Below, one piece after another: positions 689 to 16,480 of a stretch of DNA of 21,338 nt (position 1 is the first letter of the stretch; every line of letters begins with the position of its first letter). Origin of the DNA: a virus; IMG/VR virus record IMGVR_UViG_3300012009_000262, positions 1 through 21,338 of that record, one strand, 5' to 3'. The notes under the pieces are model-generated. The model was not told the DNA's origin and searched no databases. It worked only from the letters and a program-made list of their open reading frames with translations. A program made the translations under genes and the position numbers.

Positions 689-3232
689 ATGTATAATAGA
701 GAAGAAGTATTTGCCGCTACGGTAGAGTATTTTAATGGTGATGAATTAGCCGCTAATGTTTGGATCAACAAATATTGTTTAAAAGATTCCGCCGGTAACC
801 TTTATGAAAAAACACCAGCCGATATGCACCGTCGATTGGCTAAAGAATTGGCTCGGATTGAAGCCAATTATCCTCAACCTCTTTCCGAAGAAGAAATATT
901 TGAACTTTTAAAAGATTTTAAATATATTGTTCCTGCTGGGAGTCCTATGGCCGGGATTGGTAACCAACATCAAATAATGTCAATTAGTAACTGTTTTGTC
1001 GTAGGTAATACTCATGAAGATTCTTATGGTAGTATTCTAAAAACTGATCAAGAACTAGTTCAATTATGTAAACGACGAGCGGGAGTGGGTACTACCTTAG
1101 AACATATTCGACCTAAAGGTTCTTCCGTGAAAAACGCAGCTTTAACTTCTACGGGAGTAGTACCTTTTATGGAAAGATATTCCAACAGTATTCGCGAAGT
1201 GGCTCAGTCAGGTCGCAGAGGAGCCTTACTTATTGCTACTCATATTAATTCTATTGACGCTGAAGATTTTATAAATGCTAAGGTCGATTTAAGTAAAGTC
1301 ACTGGTGCTAATATTTCAGTTAAAATTGATGATGAATTTATGCAAGCTGCAATGTCTGATAAGGATTATGTTCAAAAATTTCCTATTCAATCTACTAACC
1401 CTGAAAAAACAAAAACTATTTCCGCTAGAACTTTATGGCAAAAATTGATTCACAATAATTGGTCAAGTGCGGAACCTGGCATCCTATTTTGGTCTACGAT
1501 TAAAAAAGAATCTATTCCAGATTGTTATGCTGATGAAGGATTTGAATCTATCGCCACTAATCCTTGTGGTGAAATAATTTTGTGTAGTGAGGATTCTTGT
1601 AGATTAACCTCCATCAACCTTTTCAGTTATGTTAAAAATCCTTTTACTAATAAAGCCGAATTTGATTGGGATTTATTTGAAAAACATGTACAAATAGCCG
1701 AACGTTTAATGGATGATATTGTGGATTTAGAAATTGAAAAAGTAGATTTAATTTTGAATAAAATTCAACAAGATCCTGAATCTGAGGAAACTAAAAGAAT
1801 TGAATTAAATTTGTGGCAAAATATTAAACGTAAAGCTCAACAAGGAAGAAGAACTGGGTTAGGTGTTACGGGGGAAGGAGATATGTTAGCGGCTTTAAAT
1901 TTGAAATATGGTACAAAAGAAGCCACGAAATTTGCAACTCAAGTTCATCAAACTTTGGCTATAAATGCCTATCGTTCTTCAATTAATATGGCTAAAGAAA
2001 GAGGAGTTTTTCCTATTTTCAATTGGGATAAAGAAAAAGAAAATCCTTTTTTAAATCGCTTATTTGAAGTTGAACCAGACTTAAGGAAAGAAATTCAGAC
2101 TCATGGTCGACGTAATATTGCTTTATTAACCATTGCACCTAATGGTTCAGTTAGTCTTTTAACTCAAACTACTTCGGGTATAGAAAATGTATTTAAACCC
2201 GTTTATAAAAGGCGTAAAAAAGTAAACCCTAATGATAAAAATAGTCGGATTGATTTTATAGATGAGATGGGAGATACTTGGGAAGAATATAATGTTTTTC
2301 ATCATAAATTCAAAGATTGGTTGGAAATTAATGGCTACAATTTTTCAGAGGTTTGTAATATGGAAGATGTTGATTTAGAAGAAATCATCAAAGAATCACC
2401 TTATTATAAAGCTACTTCTGAAGATGTGGATTGGGTCGAAAAGGTTAAAATGCAAGGTCAAATTCAAAAATGGGTAGATCATTCTATTTCAGTTACGGTT
2501 AATTTACCAGCCGAAGCCACTGAAGAAATCGTAGATCAAGTTTATCAAACAGCTTGGCGTGAAGGTTGTAAAGGTATTACTATTTATCGTGAAGGTTCTC
2601 GTTCTGGTGTTTTAGTAGCTAAGAGTAATAAAAATAAAAATAAAGAATCTAACAAAACGGTTAATGAAATCTTAAAAGAAAGTAATGCCCCCCGGCGGCC
2701 TAAAAATTTAGAGTGTGAAATTATTCGCTTTCGAAATAAAGGTGAAAAATGGATTGCTTTTGTAGGTATTTTGAATGGTCGACCTTACGAGGTTTTTACC
2801 GGAGTAGAAGAATCTTTTCCGGTGCCGAAGAATATTAATAAAGCGTTCATTAAAAAAGTAAAAAAGAAGGTGGAAGGGGAAGATGAAAAAAGATATGATC
2901 TTATTTATAAAGATAAGGAAGGTTATGAAATCATCATCACTGGTTTAAGTCGCGCTTTTAATCCTCAATATTGGGATTATGCGAAATTGATTTCTGCTCT
3001 TTTACGACATGAAATGTCAATCCCTAAAGTAATCAACCTTTTAGAAACTTTACATTTGGATGGAGATTTAATTGGAACCTGGAAACAGGGAGTAAAAAGA
3101 GTTTTGAAAAAATTTATTGAAACCGGGACTAAAATTGAAAATAAATGTCCTAAATGTAATCAAGATACCTTAGTCTTCCAAGATGGGTGTGTACAATGTA
3201 TGAATAAAGATTGTGGTTATTCAGCTTGTTAA
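689..3232 (+). CDS. nrdJ: Class II (adenosylcobalamin-dependent) ribonucleotide reductase
   Basis: Reduces ribonucleotides to deoxyribonucleotides for phage DNA synthesis using adenosylcobalamin, so no separate radical subunit is needed and oxygen is not required. The 847 residues have the class II layout. N-terminal redox Cys102 sits in S-I-S-N-C. The N-P-C-G-E active-site motif (291-295) gives the thiyl-radical Cys293 and Glu295, and Cys304, 11 residues on, matches the second redox cysteine. A TSCPD-type segment lies at about 675-800. The C-terminal Zn-ribbon-like tail has cysteines at 820, 823, 834, 837, 842 and 847. Length and all key residues are intact, so it is probably active. It lies 17 nt after the acidic repeat gene and has no obvious Shine-Dalgarno. 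No cobalamin riboswitch is visible upstream. The host would need to make or import B12, which is common in Bacteroidota. Confidence 0.96.
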   Translation: MYNREEVFAATVEYFNGDELAANVWINKYCLKDSAGNLYEKTPADMHRRLAKELARIEANYPQPLSEEEIFELLKDFKYIVPAGSPMAGIGNQHQIMSISNCFVVGNTHEDSYGSILKTDQELVQLCKRRAGVGTTLEHIRPKGSSVKNAALTSTGVVPFMERYSNSIREVAQSGRRGALLIATHINSIDAEDFINAKVDLSKVTGANISVKIDDEFMQAAMSDKDYVQKFPIQSTNPEKTKTISARTLWQKLIHNNWSSAEPGILFWSTIKKESIPDCYADEGFESIATNPCGEIILCSEDSCRLTSINLFSYVKNPFTNKAEFDWDLFEKHVQIAERLMDDIVDLEIEKVDLILNKIQQDPESEETKRIELNLWQNIKRKAQQGRRTGLGVTGEGDMLAALNLKYGTKEATKFATQVHQTLAINAYRSSINMAKERGVFPIFNWDKEKENPFLNRLFEVEPDLRKEIQTHGRRNIALLTIAPNGSVSLLTQTTSGIENVFKPVYKRRKKVNPNDKNSRIDFIDEMGDTWEEYNVFHHKFKDWLEINGYNFSEVCNMEDVDLEEIIKESPYYKATSEDVDWVEKVKMQGQIQKWVDHSISVTVNLPAEATEEIVDQVYQTAWREGCKGITIYREGSRSGVLVAKSNKNKNKESNKTVNEILKESNAPRRPKNLECEIIRFRNKGEKWIAFVGILNGRPYEVFTGVEESFPVPKNINKAFIKKVKKKVEGEDEKRYDLIYKDKEGYEIIITGLSRAFNPQYWDYAKLISALLRHEMSIPKVINLLETLHLDGDLIGTWKQGVKRVLKKFIETGTKIENKCPKCNQDTLVFQDGCVQCMNKDCGYSAC

Positions 3233-3328
3233 TTTTTTTTAAGCAAAAAATAAAATAAATTCTGATTGTTAGTTTGCTGATTTAAAATTTAAGCAGAATC
3301 TATTTAAAAATAAAAGAAAGTTAAAATT

Positions 3329-3514
3329 ATGTTAATTATTCCTGTAAATGGTAATATTGAAAGAGCTCTTAAAAAGTATAAGAATAAGTATAATCGTACT
3401 GGTTTAGGATTAGAATTGCGTCAACGCCAAGAATATAATAAAAAATCTGTGAAATTAAGAGAACAGAAAATTAAGGCAATTTATGCTCAAAAAATGAAAA
3501 ATCAAGAAGAATGA
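3329..3514 (+). CDS. rpsU: Phage-encoded ribosomal protein bS21
   Basis: 61 residues that align along their full length with bacterial bS21, the small basic protein of the 30S platform near the 16S rRNA 3' end. Recognisable elements in order are M-L-I-I-P-V, N-I-E-R-A-L-K-K-Y-K, T-G, E-L-R-x-R-Q, K-K-S-V-K-x-R and K-A-I-Y-A-Q-K. It is slightly shorter than typical Bacteroidota versions, by two residues in the N-terminal loop and a few at the end. Tyr52 sits where Bacteroidota bS21 has the Tyr (about position 54) reported to help hide the anti-Shine-Dalgarno. The leader is A-rich with no GGAGG-like site. The stop overlaps the next start (ATGA, 3511-3514), implying translational coupling. Virus-encoded bS21 is known from large phages; the effect on host translation is inferred. 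Confidence 0.92.
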   Translation: MLIIPVNGNIERALKKYKNKYNRTGLGLELRQRQEYNKKSVKLREQKIKAIYAQKMKNQEE

Positions 3515-3786
3515 AACCTTTGACGTTAGAAGAAATTTATAGTGAACTAAATAACCTTCTAACCTCTGAGAAGTTGTTTGAAGAGCCTTTAGATTTTGAG
3601 AATATTACCGTTAGCGATGCCCTAAGCCAAATTTATAAAGCCACTCACCTCTTAGAATATCGTTTCTATCAGAAAAGGCGTAAAACCAAGGCTGTACCTC
3701 TCCGAAAGATACATACTTTATGTATCAAGCTACTTCAACATGAAAATAAACATATTTTAAATTTTCGTAAGTCAGAGTTAGACTGA
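3511..3786 (+). CDS. Small protein translationally coupled to bS21, function unknown
   Basis: 91 residues that I do not recognise. The first half is acidic and helical (E-E-I-Y-S-E-L, L-F-E-E-P-L-D-F-E). The second half is basic with a K-R-R-K-T-K cluster near residues 56-61, followed by a His/Lys-rich helix. Its ATG overlaps the bS21 stop codon by four bases, so it is probably translated by ribosomes that have just finished bS21, which suggests stoichiometric expression and perhaps a related job at the ribosome or on RNA. No transmembrane segment or metal motif is visible. An accessory translation factor is only one possibility. Confidence 0.75.
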   Translation: MKPLTLEEIYSELNNLLTSEKLFEEPLDFENITVSDALSQIYKATHLLEYRFYQKRRKTKAVPLRKIHTLCIKLLQHENKHILNFRKSELD

Positions 3787-3812
3787 CCCTTTTTTATTTT
3801 TTTTGTTAAAAA

Positions 3813-3873: not shown

Positions 3874-5208
3874 ATGAAAATTACAAAAACCTTCTCCGTA
3901 GAAAAAAAATTATATGAAAAGTTCGAACAGATTGTGTCTGATCGAAATTTAAATCGTTCCAAATTCATTGAAAGTAAAATCCGAGAATTTGTCCACAATA
4001 ATATTATTATTGATACCGATAGTTTATATTACTATAAATATGAAGATGAGTGTGAAGCTGAAAATGCTAATTCTCCTGATAGTTGTGTCTGGAAAAAGAA
4101 AACTCAAACTGACTATGTTAAGATTGTCGAAACTGAATTAAATAATGAAGGAGAACTCTTTGTTAATTTAGATGATGGTAATCGTTTGCGTTATGATTTG
4201 TTTGAAAAAGCTTATGAAATTGCCGTCGAACCGCAAAACTTTTTTACCAAAGGAGCCACTCCTATTGGAGAACAAATAAAAAATAGTTTGGAAAAGGTAG
4301 AGAAATTTAAAAAATCAGAAGATGATTTGGATAGTTTGGCAACTAGAGTTAATATAAATAATGATCCTTTTTTAGGGAGAGGACCTGAAGATTTAGAAAA
4401 CTCTGACAGAAACTTCAAAGCCGATGGTTTTTGGAATCAAAGTTGTGCTAAAACTCAAACCCAATCAGATAAACCGCAAGTCTCTGACCTATTTGAGCAA
4501 CCTTCTCTAAACGCTGATAAAATTTCGGAAGCCGTTGAACAATTTGAAGTAGAAAGTACCGTTAAATCCATTATAATTAGAGAAATCAAAGAAAATCCTG
4601 ACAATAATAAATATACTTTAGCGAAAGAAGATTTTGGATATCCTTTGACTCGGCTAGCTAACCGTTGGAAACAGAAAAAGAGTGAAACGGTGATAGGTAT
4701 GTTTCAAGATATGTTAGTTGAACATAATATCAATGCCAGTAATAAATATCCTTTTGAAGCGGAATATCTTGATTCCGAGATTAAAATCACTACCCCTGAA
4801 AGCTCTGAATATTTTCTAATTATAATTCAAGTGGGGTATAAGAAAGATATTTCACTAGATAATGATGGTAAATCTAATACGGTGGCCGCTAAAATTGTTT
4901 TTGAAACAGATGATTTATCTAATCAAGAATTTTATGTTTATAGTACAGAACCTAAACAATTAGTCTTTATGTTGGAAGCTTATTTAGAATATTTCCGCCA
5001 AAAGATTCACCTAACATTAGATTCGACATTGGAAGTTCTTATTCCTTCGGAATCAATGGATAAAGAATATAAAAATGAAAATATATCGGAAGTCAGTTAT
5101 GGCACGCTATATAAAAATACTAAAATTGGCATTAATGATCTTAGCGAAGTGAAAGATCTCTTAGAAAATATTAAAGATGATTTAACTAATGAAGACGATA
5201 TTAATTAG
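3874..5208 (+). CDS. Ribbon-helix-helix N-terminus with large unknown C-terminal region
   Basis: 444 residues. Residues about 1-45 look like a ribbon-helix-helix DNA-binding fold: a short strand (K-I-T-K-T-F-S-V), a helix containing K-K-L-Y-E-K-F-E-Q-I-V, a turn (N-L-N-R-S-K-F-I) and a second helix, typical of Arc/CopG-type proteins that dimerise and insert a beta ribbon into the major groove. The remainder is acidic. A probably disordered middle spans about 110-230, and a C-terminal globular region (about 235-420) is unlike families I know. The last 20 nt overlap the start of the gp47-like gene, so the two are coupled. The size, about five times that of a plain RHH repressor, suggests a DNA-bound scaffold or replication/recombination accessory rather than a simple regulator; that is inference. 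Confidence 0.75.
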   Translation: MKITKTFSVEKKLYEKFEQIVSDRNLNRSKFIESKIREFVHNNIIIDTDSLYYYKYEDECEAENANSPDSCVWKKKTQTDYVKIVETELNNEGELFVNLDDGNRLRYDLFEKAYEIAVEPQNFFTKGATPIGEQIKNSLEKVEKFKKSEDDLDSLATRVNINNDPFLGRGPEDLENSDRNFKADGFWNQSCAKTQTQSDKPQVSDLFEQPSLNADKISEAVEQFEVESTVKSIIIREIKENPDNNKYTLAKEDFGYPLTRLANRWKQKKSETVIGMFQDMLVEHNINASNKYPFEAEYLDSEIKITTPESSEYFLIIIQVGYKKDISLDNDGKSNTVAAKIVFETDDLSNQEFYVYSTEPKQLVFMLEAYLEYFRQKIHLTLDSTLEVLIPSESMDKEYKNENISEVSYGTLYKNTKIGINDLSEVKDLLENIKDDLTNEDDIN

Positions 5209-9865: not shown

Positions 9866-12766
9866 ATGGCTTTGAAAAGAACGATTGCTAATAATCAAGT
9901 AATCGTTAATCTCCCCACTGCTTATCAAGAAGCAGGTACTCGTAATAGTAGTTTGCTCATTAATAACTATGAGGACGAAAATGGTTACCTTGCTATTTTT
10001 ACGGAATTAGATACTCATCTTATGAAAGGGGATCGAGTTTTTATTTCTTCTCTGTCTTCCGTAACCACCTTAGATAACTATTTAACTTATTTTGAAAAAG
10101 ATAATTATCCTTTTACCCGTTATAATATGGGTTATGAGGTTTTAAATATAGATTTAGAACAAAATAAAGTAGTGTTGGATATTTTAATAGTTGAATTAGA
10201 GGATTCTTTCAATCTAATCGGAAGTTACTTAACTAAAATTAGAGGGGAAAAAGTTAATGTTAGTAATAGTGAAATTGATTCGGTTTTCTTCAAAGAAGGA
10301 ATATTTAAAAACAATCAATATAAACAAAGTATTATTATTGAAGGTCAAGTAACGGGTGGTACTTATCTTTCTAAATATAATTTTGATTATCAATCCTTAA
10401 AAAGAAATGAGGAGGAAATTATTTTCAATCAGAACAATGATAGTTATGGTTATAATTATTTAGGCAACCGTTTAGCTTTAGATGAAACGGCTTATGATTT
10501 ATTTTTGAATATTACTAGTGCTACTACTTCTACTAATGATAATACTGTAGATAGTGATCCTTGGCATCTTTATGATAATAGTAGTACCAATTATTGGAAA
10601 AGTAATGGTGTAACTCCTCAATGGGTAACATGGTCTTTCGAAAAAGCTTTAACTTTAATTGGTTTGACCGTTTATTGTTTTAGTGATGATAATATCGGTA
10701 ATATCGGTTTACCTAATGATCTTGATATTCAAGGTTGGAATGGTTCCAATTGGAATACTATTACGGGTTTTACCAATATTTGGGTGGGTTCTGGTTCGGC
10801 TAATGAACAAAATTTTACGTTAGAATTTGATAATAATATCACTTATAGTAAATATAGATTATATATTTACACAGGTTATATTGGAAATTCTGATACCGAA
10901 ACTAACACTGAACTTTTATTTAGAGAAGTGGTTCCTATGGTAAAAGAGTTTCCAGAAATTGGAGGTTCCTTTGGTAAAATCTTCTTTGCGGAAAATTTAT
11001 TAGATGGTAATACCGGTTTTAGTGAACGTAATATTCCTTGGGAACCTAATGATAGTTTTTTTATTACCGGTGCTGGTAAAGATTATTGGTGGGGTAGTAA
11101 TGATAATTACACTACAACTAATCGGTTTGAAATGATGAGTGATTTAGGGTTCGCTGGTGAAACTTATGATAGATATATTTTAACGTTATCTGGTTATAGT
11201 GATGGAACTGATATGTATGTTATGTTTCGAGATGGTAGTGATAATATAGCCTCTACTGACCAAACTTATACCAACTTTGGTCAATTTGAATCTCTTGATT
11301 TAACTTGTTTAGTTAATACGGACATCTACCTCATTCTAGGTGGAGATTCAATTGATAACAATGAAGTAGCCTATATGTATGGATTATTTCTCTATCAAGA
11401 AAAATTAGAATATCAACCCCTTAAATTATTTGATAAGGATTCATCCACCGAATTAATTAGTATTAACGAAACTTCTAAGGAACATACTGTAGAATTTGAT
11501 TTTCATAATCAACCTCAAATTATAACGAGCTTTAATTATCGCATTAATAATAAAATCTTTAGTAGTCCTTTTGATATTTATTCCTCCTTTAATCCTAGAG
11601 GAACTGTTTCCATAGAAGGTTATAACAATGGTTCTTGGGAAATTATTGAAAGTTTTTCTTTTGATGGTAGTGGGTTGTATAAAAATAATCTTAGTAAGGT
11701 ACAAGCTTTAAATCGTTTTAGATTAAGATTTGTTACTAATACCACTACTTTAATTTTAAGTGAAGTCGAACTTTTACGCAAAGCTAATCAAAGTGCTTAT
11801 AATGTAGAAATTGAAAATGGTAATTTTTATTTCTGTAATTTACAAGGAGAGGAAAATACTATCAGAGGCGGTTATTTTGAAAATTGTATCGTAGATAATT
11901 ATATCATTCAAGGTGGATTTTTTCTCAATTGTTATATTCAAAGTAATTGTGTCTGGGAAGGTGGTACTTTCAAAGGTTTTGGATCTTCTTTTGGACCAGA
12001 TACTTTTTATGATGGTAATTGGAATTCCGGAACTTTTTTTGATAAAACATGGGTCTCAGGTAATTTTAATGCGGGACTTTTCCTTAATTCACAATGGTTG
12101 AATGGTCGTTTCAATGGCGGTACTTTCTCAGCTTCTACTTGGGCTGACGGTTTCTTTGATGAAGGTCTATTTTTAGATTCTATGTGGAGTGCGGGTACTT
12201 TTAATTCTGGTACTTTTAATGATTCCTTTTGGATTACCGGATTATTTAATGATGGTGATGTTGATAATTCTACTATTTGGAGTGGGGGAACTTTTCGTAA
12301 TGGTCGCTTTAATCGTTCTACGTGGTATAATGGTGATTTTTGGGATGGTAGTTTTACTAATTCCGTATGGTTGGCTGGTAATTTTTACGGTGGTAATTTT
12401 AATAACTCTAATTGGACTGGGGGGACCTGGTATGACGGCACCTTCACTAATTCTAATTGGTTAAATGGAACTTGGTATAATGGTACCTTTGAAAATTCTT
12501 TCTGGGAAGATGGTTCTTGGTATAATGGTAATTTTAATAGTTCCGATTGGAAATATGGTACTTGGTATAATGGAGAATGGAATAATTCTTCTATTAATAA
12601 AGCTACCCCCACTTCTTATATTAATTGGAAATTTGGAGCCTTTAATGGGGGATATATAGATCCTGATAGTGAAGTTAATTGGAGTGGCGGTACCTGGAAT
12701 TTGGGAGAATTCGTAGCTAGAGATAATACGGATATTCGTATTATTTTTCCTAATGCTGAAATATAG
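9866..12766 (+). CDS. Large fibre/appendage protein: discoidin-like domains plus W/F-G repeats
   Basis: 966 residues with no signal peptide, consistent with a virion appendage. Domains in order: an unfamiliar N-terminal part (1-210); a discoidin (F5/8 type C)-like jelly roll at about 215-350 with Y-D-N-S-S-T-N-Y-W and a later Y-R-L-Y-I-Y strand; a further beta domain at about 355-510; a second discoidin-like domain at about 515-640 with L-F-D-K-D-S-S-T-E and F-R-L-R-F; and a C-terminal beta-helix-like part (about 650-940) made of W-x-x-G / F-x-x-G repeats. Discoidin-like domains usually bind glycans, so host-surface recognition is likely. It heads the rightward structural operon, is preceded by TATATA 21 nt upstream, and the next gene follows 7 nt later. 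Repeats sharing the W-Y-N-G motif also occur at the end of that next protein. Confidence 0.85.
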   Translation: MALKRTIANNQVIVNLPTAYQEAGTRNSSLLINNYEDENGYLAIFTELDTHLMKGDRVFISSLSSVTTLDNYLTYFEKDNYPFTRYNMGYEVLNIDLEQNKVVLDILIVELEDSFNLIGSYLTKIRGEKVNVSNSEIDSVFFKEGIFKNNQYKQSIIIEGQVTGGTYLSKYNFDYQSLKRNEEEIIFNQNNDSYGYNYLGNRLALDETAYDLFLNITSATTSTNDNTVDSDPWHLYDNSSTNYWKSNGVTPQWVTWSFEKALTLIGLTVYCFSDDNIGNIGLPNDLDIQGWNGSNWNTITGFTNIWVGSGSANEQNFTLEFDNNITYSKYRLYIYTGYIGNSDTETNTELLFREVVPMVKEFPEIGGSFGKIFFAENLLDGNTGFSERNIPWEPNDSFFITGAGKDYWWGSNDNYTTTNRFEMMSDLGFAGETYDRYILTLSGYSDGTDMYVMFRDGSDNIASTDQTYTNFGQFESLDLTCLVNTDIYLILGGDSIDNNEVAYMYGLFLYQEKLEYQPLKLFDKDSSTELISINETSKEHTVEFDFHNQPQIITSFNYRINNKIFSSPFDIYSSFNPRGTVSIEGYNNGSWEIIESFSFDGSGLYKNNLSKVQALNRFRLRFVTNTTTLILSEVELLRKANQSAYNVEIENGNFYFCNLQGEENTIRGGYFENCIVDNYIIQGGFFLNCYIQSNCVWEGGTFKGFGSSFGPDTFYDGNWNSGTFFDKTWVSGNFNAGLFLNSQWLNGRFNGGTFSASTWADGFFDEGLFLDSMWSAGTFNSGTFNDSFWITGLFNDGDVDNSTIWSGGTFRNGRFNRSTWYNGDFWDGSFTNSVWLAGNFYGGNFNNSNWTGGTWYDGTFTNSNWLNGTWYNGTFENSFWEDGSWYNGNFNSSDWKYGTWYNGEWNNSSINKATPTSYINWKFGAFNGGYIDPDSEVNWSGGTWNLGEFVARDNTDIRIIFPNAEI
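12050..12592 (+). repeat. Twelve 45-bp coding repeats (15-residue W-x-x-G-x-F-x-x-G units)
   Basis: Residues 729-909 of the 966-aa protein form twelve consecutive units, all 15 residues except the fifth (16). Each starts with Trp (729, 744, 759, 774, 789, 805, 820, 835, 850, 865, 880, 895) and follows W-x-x-G-x-[FW]-x-x-G-x-[FW]-x-x-S-x. This equals three pentapeptides per unit with an aromatic at each central position, resembling pentapeptide-repeat right-handed beta helices but with Trp/Phe in place of Leu/Phe. Looser repeats extend back to about 11870. Confidence 0.9.
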
Positions 12767-15934: not shown

Positions 15935-16480
15935 ATGAAACATTTGACTGAACAAAATGAATTCAAAAAGAAAAAACAAAATAAGTTGGTTACGGAAATG
16001 GTTCACACCGTCGGTAATGATTATTTAGTAGTCACTGATATTCCTATTCCTAAATCTTTGGTTAATGCTTTTATTAAAAAAGTAGCGGATACCAGTGGTC
16101 AAGATATTAAAGCCATGTATGGTGATCAATACTTAGCTGAAAAATTAGTAGAATACGTAAAAGTTAATTTAATTAATATTGACAATCTACCAGTTTCTAT
16201 TGTTTTGGGTGAAGATTATAATAAAGGTGTTCAAGTTCAACCTCAAGCTCAAACTCAAATTGATGCTCAAACTCAAATTGATGTTCAAGATACGGCAGCT
16301 CAAATTCCAGCTCAAGAAGGCGGTACTCAAGGTACTCAGGTTCAAGGCCAAGCCGTTCAAGGTCAAGGTCAAGTAATTCAAGGCCAAGGAGTTCAAGGTA
16401 CTCAAACTCAAACCACTCAAACTCAAGGACAAGTAGTAGCTCCACAAGGTCAAACTCCACAAGGTAGTCAAGAAATTTAA
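15935..16480 (+). CDS. Small protein with alternating Gln-rich C-terminal tail
   Basis: 181 residues in two parts. Residues 1-98 form a small globular domain I do not recognise, with a basic N-terminal patch (K-K-K-K-Q-N-K) and two helices around K-S-L-V-N-A-F-I-K-K and Y-L-A-E-K-L-V-E-Y-V. Residues 99-181 are low complexity, with Gln at nearly every second position (for example V-Q-V-Q-P-Q-A-Q-T-Q) and Gly, Thr and Val between. The N-terminus contains H-L-T-E, a possible [LI]-x-E processing site. It is the first gene of a unit with the 179-aa protein and the DHH protein. The tail could be a flexible linker or a self-assembling segment. Open frames on other strands and frames over the tail are artefacts of its repetitive codons. 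Confidence 0.75.
   Translation: MKHLTEQNEFKKKKQNKLVTEMVHTVGNDYLVVTDIPIPKSLVNAFIKKVADTSGQDIKAMYGDQYLAEKLVEYVKVNLINIDNLPVSIVLGEDYNKGVQVQPQAQTQIDAQTQIDVQDTAAQIPAQEGGTQGTQVQGQAVQGQGQVIQGQGVQGTQTQTTQTQGQVVAPQGQTPQGSQEI
16229..16477 (+). repeat. Low-complexity Gln-alternating coding tract
   Basis: The DNA has a strong six-base rhythm in which every second codon is usually CAA. It encodes residues 99-181 of the 181-aa protein. Gln is encoded almost only by CAA, so DNA repeat expansion probably built the tract. Confidence 0.85.

Follow-up and report, generated by a model that had tools for sequence, protein, structure and literature searches.

Judged from its sequence, a 21,338-base viral contig, analysed here over its whole length and referred to below as the window, encodes a Mahaphage-related copy of the ribosomal protein bS21, which retains, as Tyr52, the residue that contacts the anti-Shine-Dalgarno (anti-SD) tail of 16S rRNA and is expressed, like the other readable genes of the window, from a leader without a Shine-Dalgarno (SD) sequence. 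In Bacteroidota, bS21 decides whether ribosomes see SD sites, and in many species it regulates its own synthesis through that property. Within the 30S subunit of Bacteroidia, bS21 holds the 16S tail together with bS18 and bS6; loss or mutation of bS21 raises rpsU translation and lowers initiation on SD-less mRNAs, and in Flavobacterium johnsoniae both bS21 and its C-terminal part increase initiation-complex formation on SD-less mRNA (PMC9976891).

The explanation that we favour, with somewhat better than even confidence, is that the phage bS21 joins the host 30S subunit, holds the 16S tail via Tyr52, and supports SD-less initiation. During infection of a Bacteroidota host, the protein would enter the 30S platform, either replacing host bS21 or alongside it, and with bS18 and bS6 would form the pocket for the 16S 3′ tail. 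The completed pocket may then aid initiation on SD-less, A-rich leaders, which is the look of all readable phage genes. Translated from an ordinary SD-less leader, the phage bS21 would be made independently of bS21-deficient ribosomes, unlike the product of F. johnsoniae rpsU. The steps that we infer are entry into the ribosome, formation of the pocket, an advantage for phage mRNAs, and independence from host feedback. Incorporation need not help the phage, as the one viral bS21 tested in ribosomes, from a pelagiphage, enters those of Escherichia coli and cuts translation to about 5% (PMC6375957). The initial annotation had further proposed that the phage copy keeps ribosomes SD-blind. Host ribosomes carrying their own bS21 already have a blocked anti-SD and are SD-blind, so that the phage copy would contribute only where the host protein is lost, diluted, replaced, or limiting. 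Removal of host bS21 by a phage protease has been raised as a speculation (PMC9976891).

The bS21 protein and its pocket residue

The gene (3329-3514, plus strand) begins with ATG at 3329, has TTA as its second codon, and ends with TGA at 3512-3514, encoding 61 amino acids. The product matches the Pfam family PF01165 (Ribosomal_S21) with an E-value of 9.2e-11 and a score of 41.7 bits, above the cut-off of 27, across nearly the whole domain (residues 6-54 of 61; profile positions 5-54 of 55), and the ORF also matches PHROG 21469, ribosomal protein S21 (E 8.8e-6). When PDB chains were searched with phmmer, the top two matches were bS21s, 9i5v_9 (E 6.7e-11) and F. johnsoniae 7jil_z (E 7.1e-10), both aligned nearly end to end. 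These matches bear out the earlier description of a full bS21. A single-chain AlphaFold model, built with sequences from the window and from viral-contig loci only, contains helices at residues 10-24, 26-34, and 39-60, with a mean pLDDT of 86. Foldseek returned nine matches to this model, all of them ribosome entries and none significant; with E-values of 0.5 or worse for a helical protein of 61 residues, they were dropped as proof of bS21 identity.

In the phmmer alignment, Tyr52 (codon TAT, 3482-3484, plus strand) lies opposite Tyr54 of F. johnsoniae 7jil_z, the residue that stacks on A1534 in the 16S tail (PMC9723584, PMC9976891). Tyr occupies this column in 77 of the 80 rpsU products from hosts and in 76 of the 95 phage bS21s; Y, F, H, or W occurs in 86 of the 95, both phage counts including the window. 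Among bacterial bS21s, position 54 is Y, H, or F in 84 of 88 ML/MI-type proteins, whereas it is R in 75 of 78 others, so that Tyr52 marks the Bacteroidia type and is no universal feature of bS21. By its residue 54, which in the Bacteroidia-type, anti-SD-sequestering class is aromatic or His, the window protein falls within that class. The claim that the anti-SD-contacting Tyr is kept thus holds, although the idea had already been published: Chen et al. 2022 (PMC9723584) described phage bS21s that keep Tyr54 and may mimic the Bacteroidota protein, the stacking of this residue on A1534, and a proposed substitution in host ribosomes.

Identity between the window bS21 and the sampled host bS21s does not exceed 57%. 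At positions 21, 23, 24, and 28 (F. johnsoniae numbering), the window protein carries N, Y, N, and L, where host proteins have R, F, D, and mostly T. These substitutions favour a model, proposed together with a report of N-terminal divergence in PMC9723584, in which an altered, mRNA-facing N-terminal helix would select phage messages while the C-terminal anchor mimics that of the host. Here such selection is a tentative possibility, given that host and phage messages both lack SDs, which leaves no evident target for discrimination, and that the divergence could be drift. The same divergence bears on a simpler account, in which the phage protein, without any selectivity, tops up a dissociable ribosomal component and thereby keeps 30S subunits complete during heavy phage translation. 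Although bS21 is exchangeable and is by far the commonest ribosomal protein carried by phages (PMC6375957, PMC9976891), the low identity to sampled host bS21s is more divergence than supply needs, and we consider this account doubtful.

Locus, genome of origin, and host

Upstream of bS21 lies a ribonucleotide reductase gene (689-3232, plus strand), and downstream a 91-residue ORF (ORF91; 3511-3786, plus strand) overlaps the bS21 stop codon (ATGA) and is probably co-translated with it. As relatives of ORF91 were found neither in the phage collection nor in a pattern scan of viral contigs, it was rejected as a conserved partner of bS21. The bS21-ORF91 unit is closed by a terminator-like hairpin and T run of the intrinsic type (3771-3797, plus strand; one found, 0.2 expected), which is followed by a gene for a protein with a weak ribbon-helix-helix match (3874-5208, plus strand).

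Three related contigs (L472, L474, and L475) share the order of a homologue of the ORF at 33-671, the reductase, and a homologue of the 3874-5208 gene. The last directly follows the reductase in L474 and L475, while in L472 a histone H1-like Hc1 gene (L472:5803-6027; Pfam E 3.9e-10) stands between them; a further Hc1 gene lies 3′ of the reductase in L473 (7619-7810). In the window, bS21 and ORF91 occupy the place that Hc1 takes after the reductase in L472 and L473. Since the relatives have Hc1 or nothing between the reductase and the 3874-5208 homologue, gene order indicates that bS21 was gained at, or moved to, this place. In L474 (2969-6935) and L475 (2910-6876), the reductase match is split into two pieces about 1.5 kb apart, which suggests an intron, an intein, or another insert.

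The motif TATATA occurs 14 times in the 1,237 intergenic bases of the window versus five times in its 20,101 coding bases, and most sites lie 25-32 bases ahead of a start codon (they include 3847, 6662, 9839, 15908, 19271, and 19897). It is likely to be a phage promoter element, of another class than whatever serves bS21 and the reductase, upstream of which it is absent; late-promoter control of bS21 was rejected on the same ground. In many other bS21-bearing phage contigs, TATTTAT/ATATTTA plays the same part as TATATA. Elsewhere in the window, positions 9866-12766 encode 966 residues in which W-x-x-G-x-F-type repeats are numerous; related pieces occur in several huge phages, and the product probably belongs to a tail or another surface appendage. 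The protein encoded at 15935-16480 has a long, low-complexity, Q/G-rich C-terminal tail (QAQTQIDAQTQ...GTQVQGQ), and its relative in the 735-kb phage matches for only about 79 residues.

Several window genes are closest to those of phages with genomes of 634-735 kb. The reductase shares, along 100% of its length, 58% identity with that of LR745206 (634 kb), the gp32-type SSB is 44-48% identical to those of LR756501-4 and LR745206, the DHH protein 37-45% to those of LR745206 and LR756502, and bS21 itself 46-54% to those of the same genomes. The 21,338-base record yielded no recognisable terminase or capsid gene. Because the reductase, SSB, DHH protein, and bS21 are all nearest to these phages, the window is probably a small fragment of a very large Mahaphage-type genome. 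Mahaphage relatives are predicted to replicate in Bacteroidetes (PMC7162821), and an aromatic residue or His at position 54 is the norm in ML/MI-type Bacteroidota bS21s and is absent from nearly all MVG/MVS-type proteins; both observations support the Bacteroidota-type host that had been assumed.

Start signals in the window, its relatives, and host rpsU

The bS21 leader (3299-3328, plus strand) is A-rich, SD-less, and weakly structured. It has 13 A in 20 nt, including A at -3, -6, and -12, with G at -13, so that A occupies three of the four determinant positions described for Bacteroidia (PMC9976891). Its best pairing with the anti-SD, by AGAAAG, reaches -5.1 kcal/mol (-0.2 with an 8-nt tail), far from the -13 kcal/mol or better that marks the extended SD of autoregulated rpsU; the A-rich, SD-less leader of the initial annotation is confirmed by these values. 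AGAAAG is not claimed as a remnant of a host extended SD, as shuffles of so A-rich a leader give -2.8 kcal/mol, and two other window genes score lower. A structured leader was likewise rejected, folding being weaker than in most shuffles (z +1.68), and an Rfam search of the leader gave no match.

Across the window, pairing with the 16S tail is weaker than -7 kcal/mol for all 21 genes; in a mock window placed further upstream, one of 21 reaches that value. The description of a genome without SD sites therefore stands for these genes, the "genome" being a 21-kb record only. The 634-kb relative has fewer SD-like leaders than its mock (2.4% versus 6.6%; 546 genes), which resembles the depletion described in Flavobacteriales. 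In the 735-kb relative LR756501 (L432-L451), strong SDs are mildly enriched (3.4% versus 0.8% in the mock at -11 kcal/mol or better; 497 genes, that is, 17 versus 4); many of these leaders carry AAAGGAGGA, and the bS21 of this phage (L447:8927) is among the strong-SD genes, at -12.1 kcal/mol.

For bS21 itself, SD strength was surveyed in host and phage leaders. Pairing with a 13-nt tail (UCACCUCCUUUCU) was calculated with RNAduplex over leader positions -22 to -3 for 80 host rpsU leaders, mostly from Flavobacteriaceae, and 94 distinct phage bS21 leaders. Host leaders have a median of -18.7 kcal/mol, with 74 of 80 (93%) at -13 or better, in agreement with the strong SD that the initial annotation gave for Flavobacterium rpsU and with PMC9976891; for the phage leaders the median is -1.2 kcal/mol, none of the 94 reaches -13, and 4% reach -7 or better. 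The contrast persists with an 8-nt tail and with a variant anti-SD. Clustering of the phage proteins at 70% identity gave 29 clusters whose residue 54 is aromatic or His; none of these reaches -13, and four reach -9 or better. Lack of an SD is a genuine feature of phage bS21 leaders. No such comparison of host and phage bS21 leaders turned up in the papers searched.

The host side of this contrast depends on the taxon sampled. Extended SDs precede rpsU in 80% of Flavobacteriales, nearly all Sphingobacteriales, and no Bacteroidales (PMC9976891); in our samples, 67 of 106 rpsU leaders reach -13 across the phylum Bacteroidota, and 7 of 56 do so in a sample of the class Bacteroidia (Fisher p 0.09 for the comparison with 0 of 29 phage clusters). 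With 7 of 56, an SD-less bS21 leader is a common host state, too.

Feedback, phylogeny, and comparison with known systems

A bS21 tree of 136 rows and 60-odd columns, with many forks open, groups 36 of 48 phage rows with six bacterial copies that lack an SD, next to Flavobacteriales; among the Flavobacteriales host rows, 15 of 17 have an extended SD. The window bS21 lies outside this main phage group without a resolved placement, and a clade uniting it with the bS21 of a 636-kb phage is not rejected (p 0.34). An independent-pairs test of SD loss had only four usable pairs, too few origins to give it power. Two Flavobacteriales-type chromosomes carry a second, SD-less bS21 directly downstream of an apparent rpoD (L502:9813-10004 in G092; L503:9952-10146 in G107) and an SD-bearing main bS21 elsewhere; such second copies are rare (2 of 79 genomes of the order) and adjoin the phage clade on the tree. 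Given this ordinary chromosomal setting, a prophage origin was rejected for the two examined. Three contigs of the viral collection (L069, L024, and L102) have a bS21 that falls beside bacterial rpsU, the L069 leader being nearly identical to the bacterial L350/L379 leader, and they are possibly bacterial contigs or recent transfers.

The leaders and the tree together bear on a further alternative, in which SD-independent phage bS21 fills the 30S subunits, whereupon the feedback loop of the host shuts down host rpsU and locks in the replacement. Extended SDs in 0 of 94 phage leaders against 74 of 80 mostly Flavobacteriaceae ones, whichever tail is used, and the position of the main phage clade next to hosts with extended SDs agree with it, as does the finding that rpsU is translated best by ribosomes lacking bS21 (PMC9976891). 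We nevertheless judge it unlikely, as the window bS21 is not within that clade, few Bacteroidia rpsU leaders have an extended SD, and the SD-less chromosomal paralogues are a possible source of phage bS21 that requires no SD loss; moreover, PMC9976891 proposes the reverse, namely that autoregulation protects the host. Escape from feedback is unproven, both as an evolutionary event and for the host of the window phage. If the host has such feedback, the SD-less leader does imply, as the initial annotation held, that bS21 could be made regardless of it, but a Flavobacterium-type autoregulated host is not supported by the tree or by the class-wide leader count. It is an improbable generalisation that phages of Flavobacteriales-type hosts, possibly including the window phage, use a bS21 freed from SD feedback for one-way repression of host rpsU, with the 735-kb relative, in which strong SDs precede bS21 and some other genes, following a contrasting strategy that uses bS21-free ribosomes.

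The favoured reading, in which phage bS21 enters the host 30S subunit and holds the 16S tail, places the window among systems already described. S21 proteins in huge phages were reported by Al-Shayeb et al. 2020 (PMC7162821), and autoregulation of rpsU through an extended SD, with a possible phage link, by McNutt et al. 2023 (PMC9976891). The novelty lies in the window bS21 as a further member, in its position next to the reductase, and in the measured difference between host and phage leaders. The bS21s of Bacteroidetes lake phages (PMC9723584) and the window protein are alike in being full-length, in having an aromatic residue or His as residue 54, in their diverged N-terminal helix, in their Bacteroidota hosts, predicted in the case of the window, and in the proposed substitution into host ribosomes. 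In the lake phages, however, bS21 lies on the reverse strand amid structural genes and is expressed late, whereas the window gene stands between the reductase and the weak ribbon-helix-helix protein and lacks the TATATA of other window genes. Mahaphages (LR745206 and LR756501-4; PMC7162821) are the nearest phage relatives by bS21, reductase, SSB, and DHH protein; unlike in the window, bS21 in LR745206 is away from the reductase (296 kb versus 410 kb), the 735-kb Mahaphage precedes its bS21 with a strong SD, and the window protein has no N-terminal extension in this comparison. Flavobacterium rpsU (PMC9976891) encodes the same protein family with the same Tyr54 pocket residue, but it is autoregulated through its extended SD, while the window bS21 has neither an SD nor any sign of such control. 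An autoregulated host rpsU set against an SD-less phage bS21 offers a direct reporter test of phage takeover of translation.
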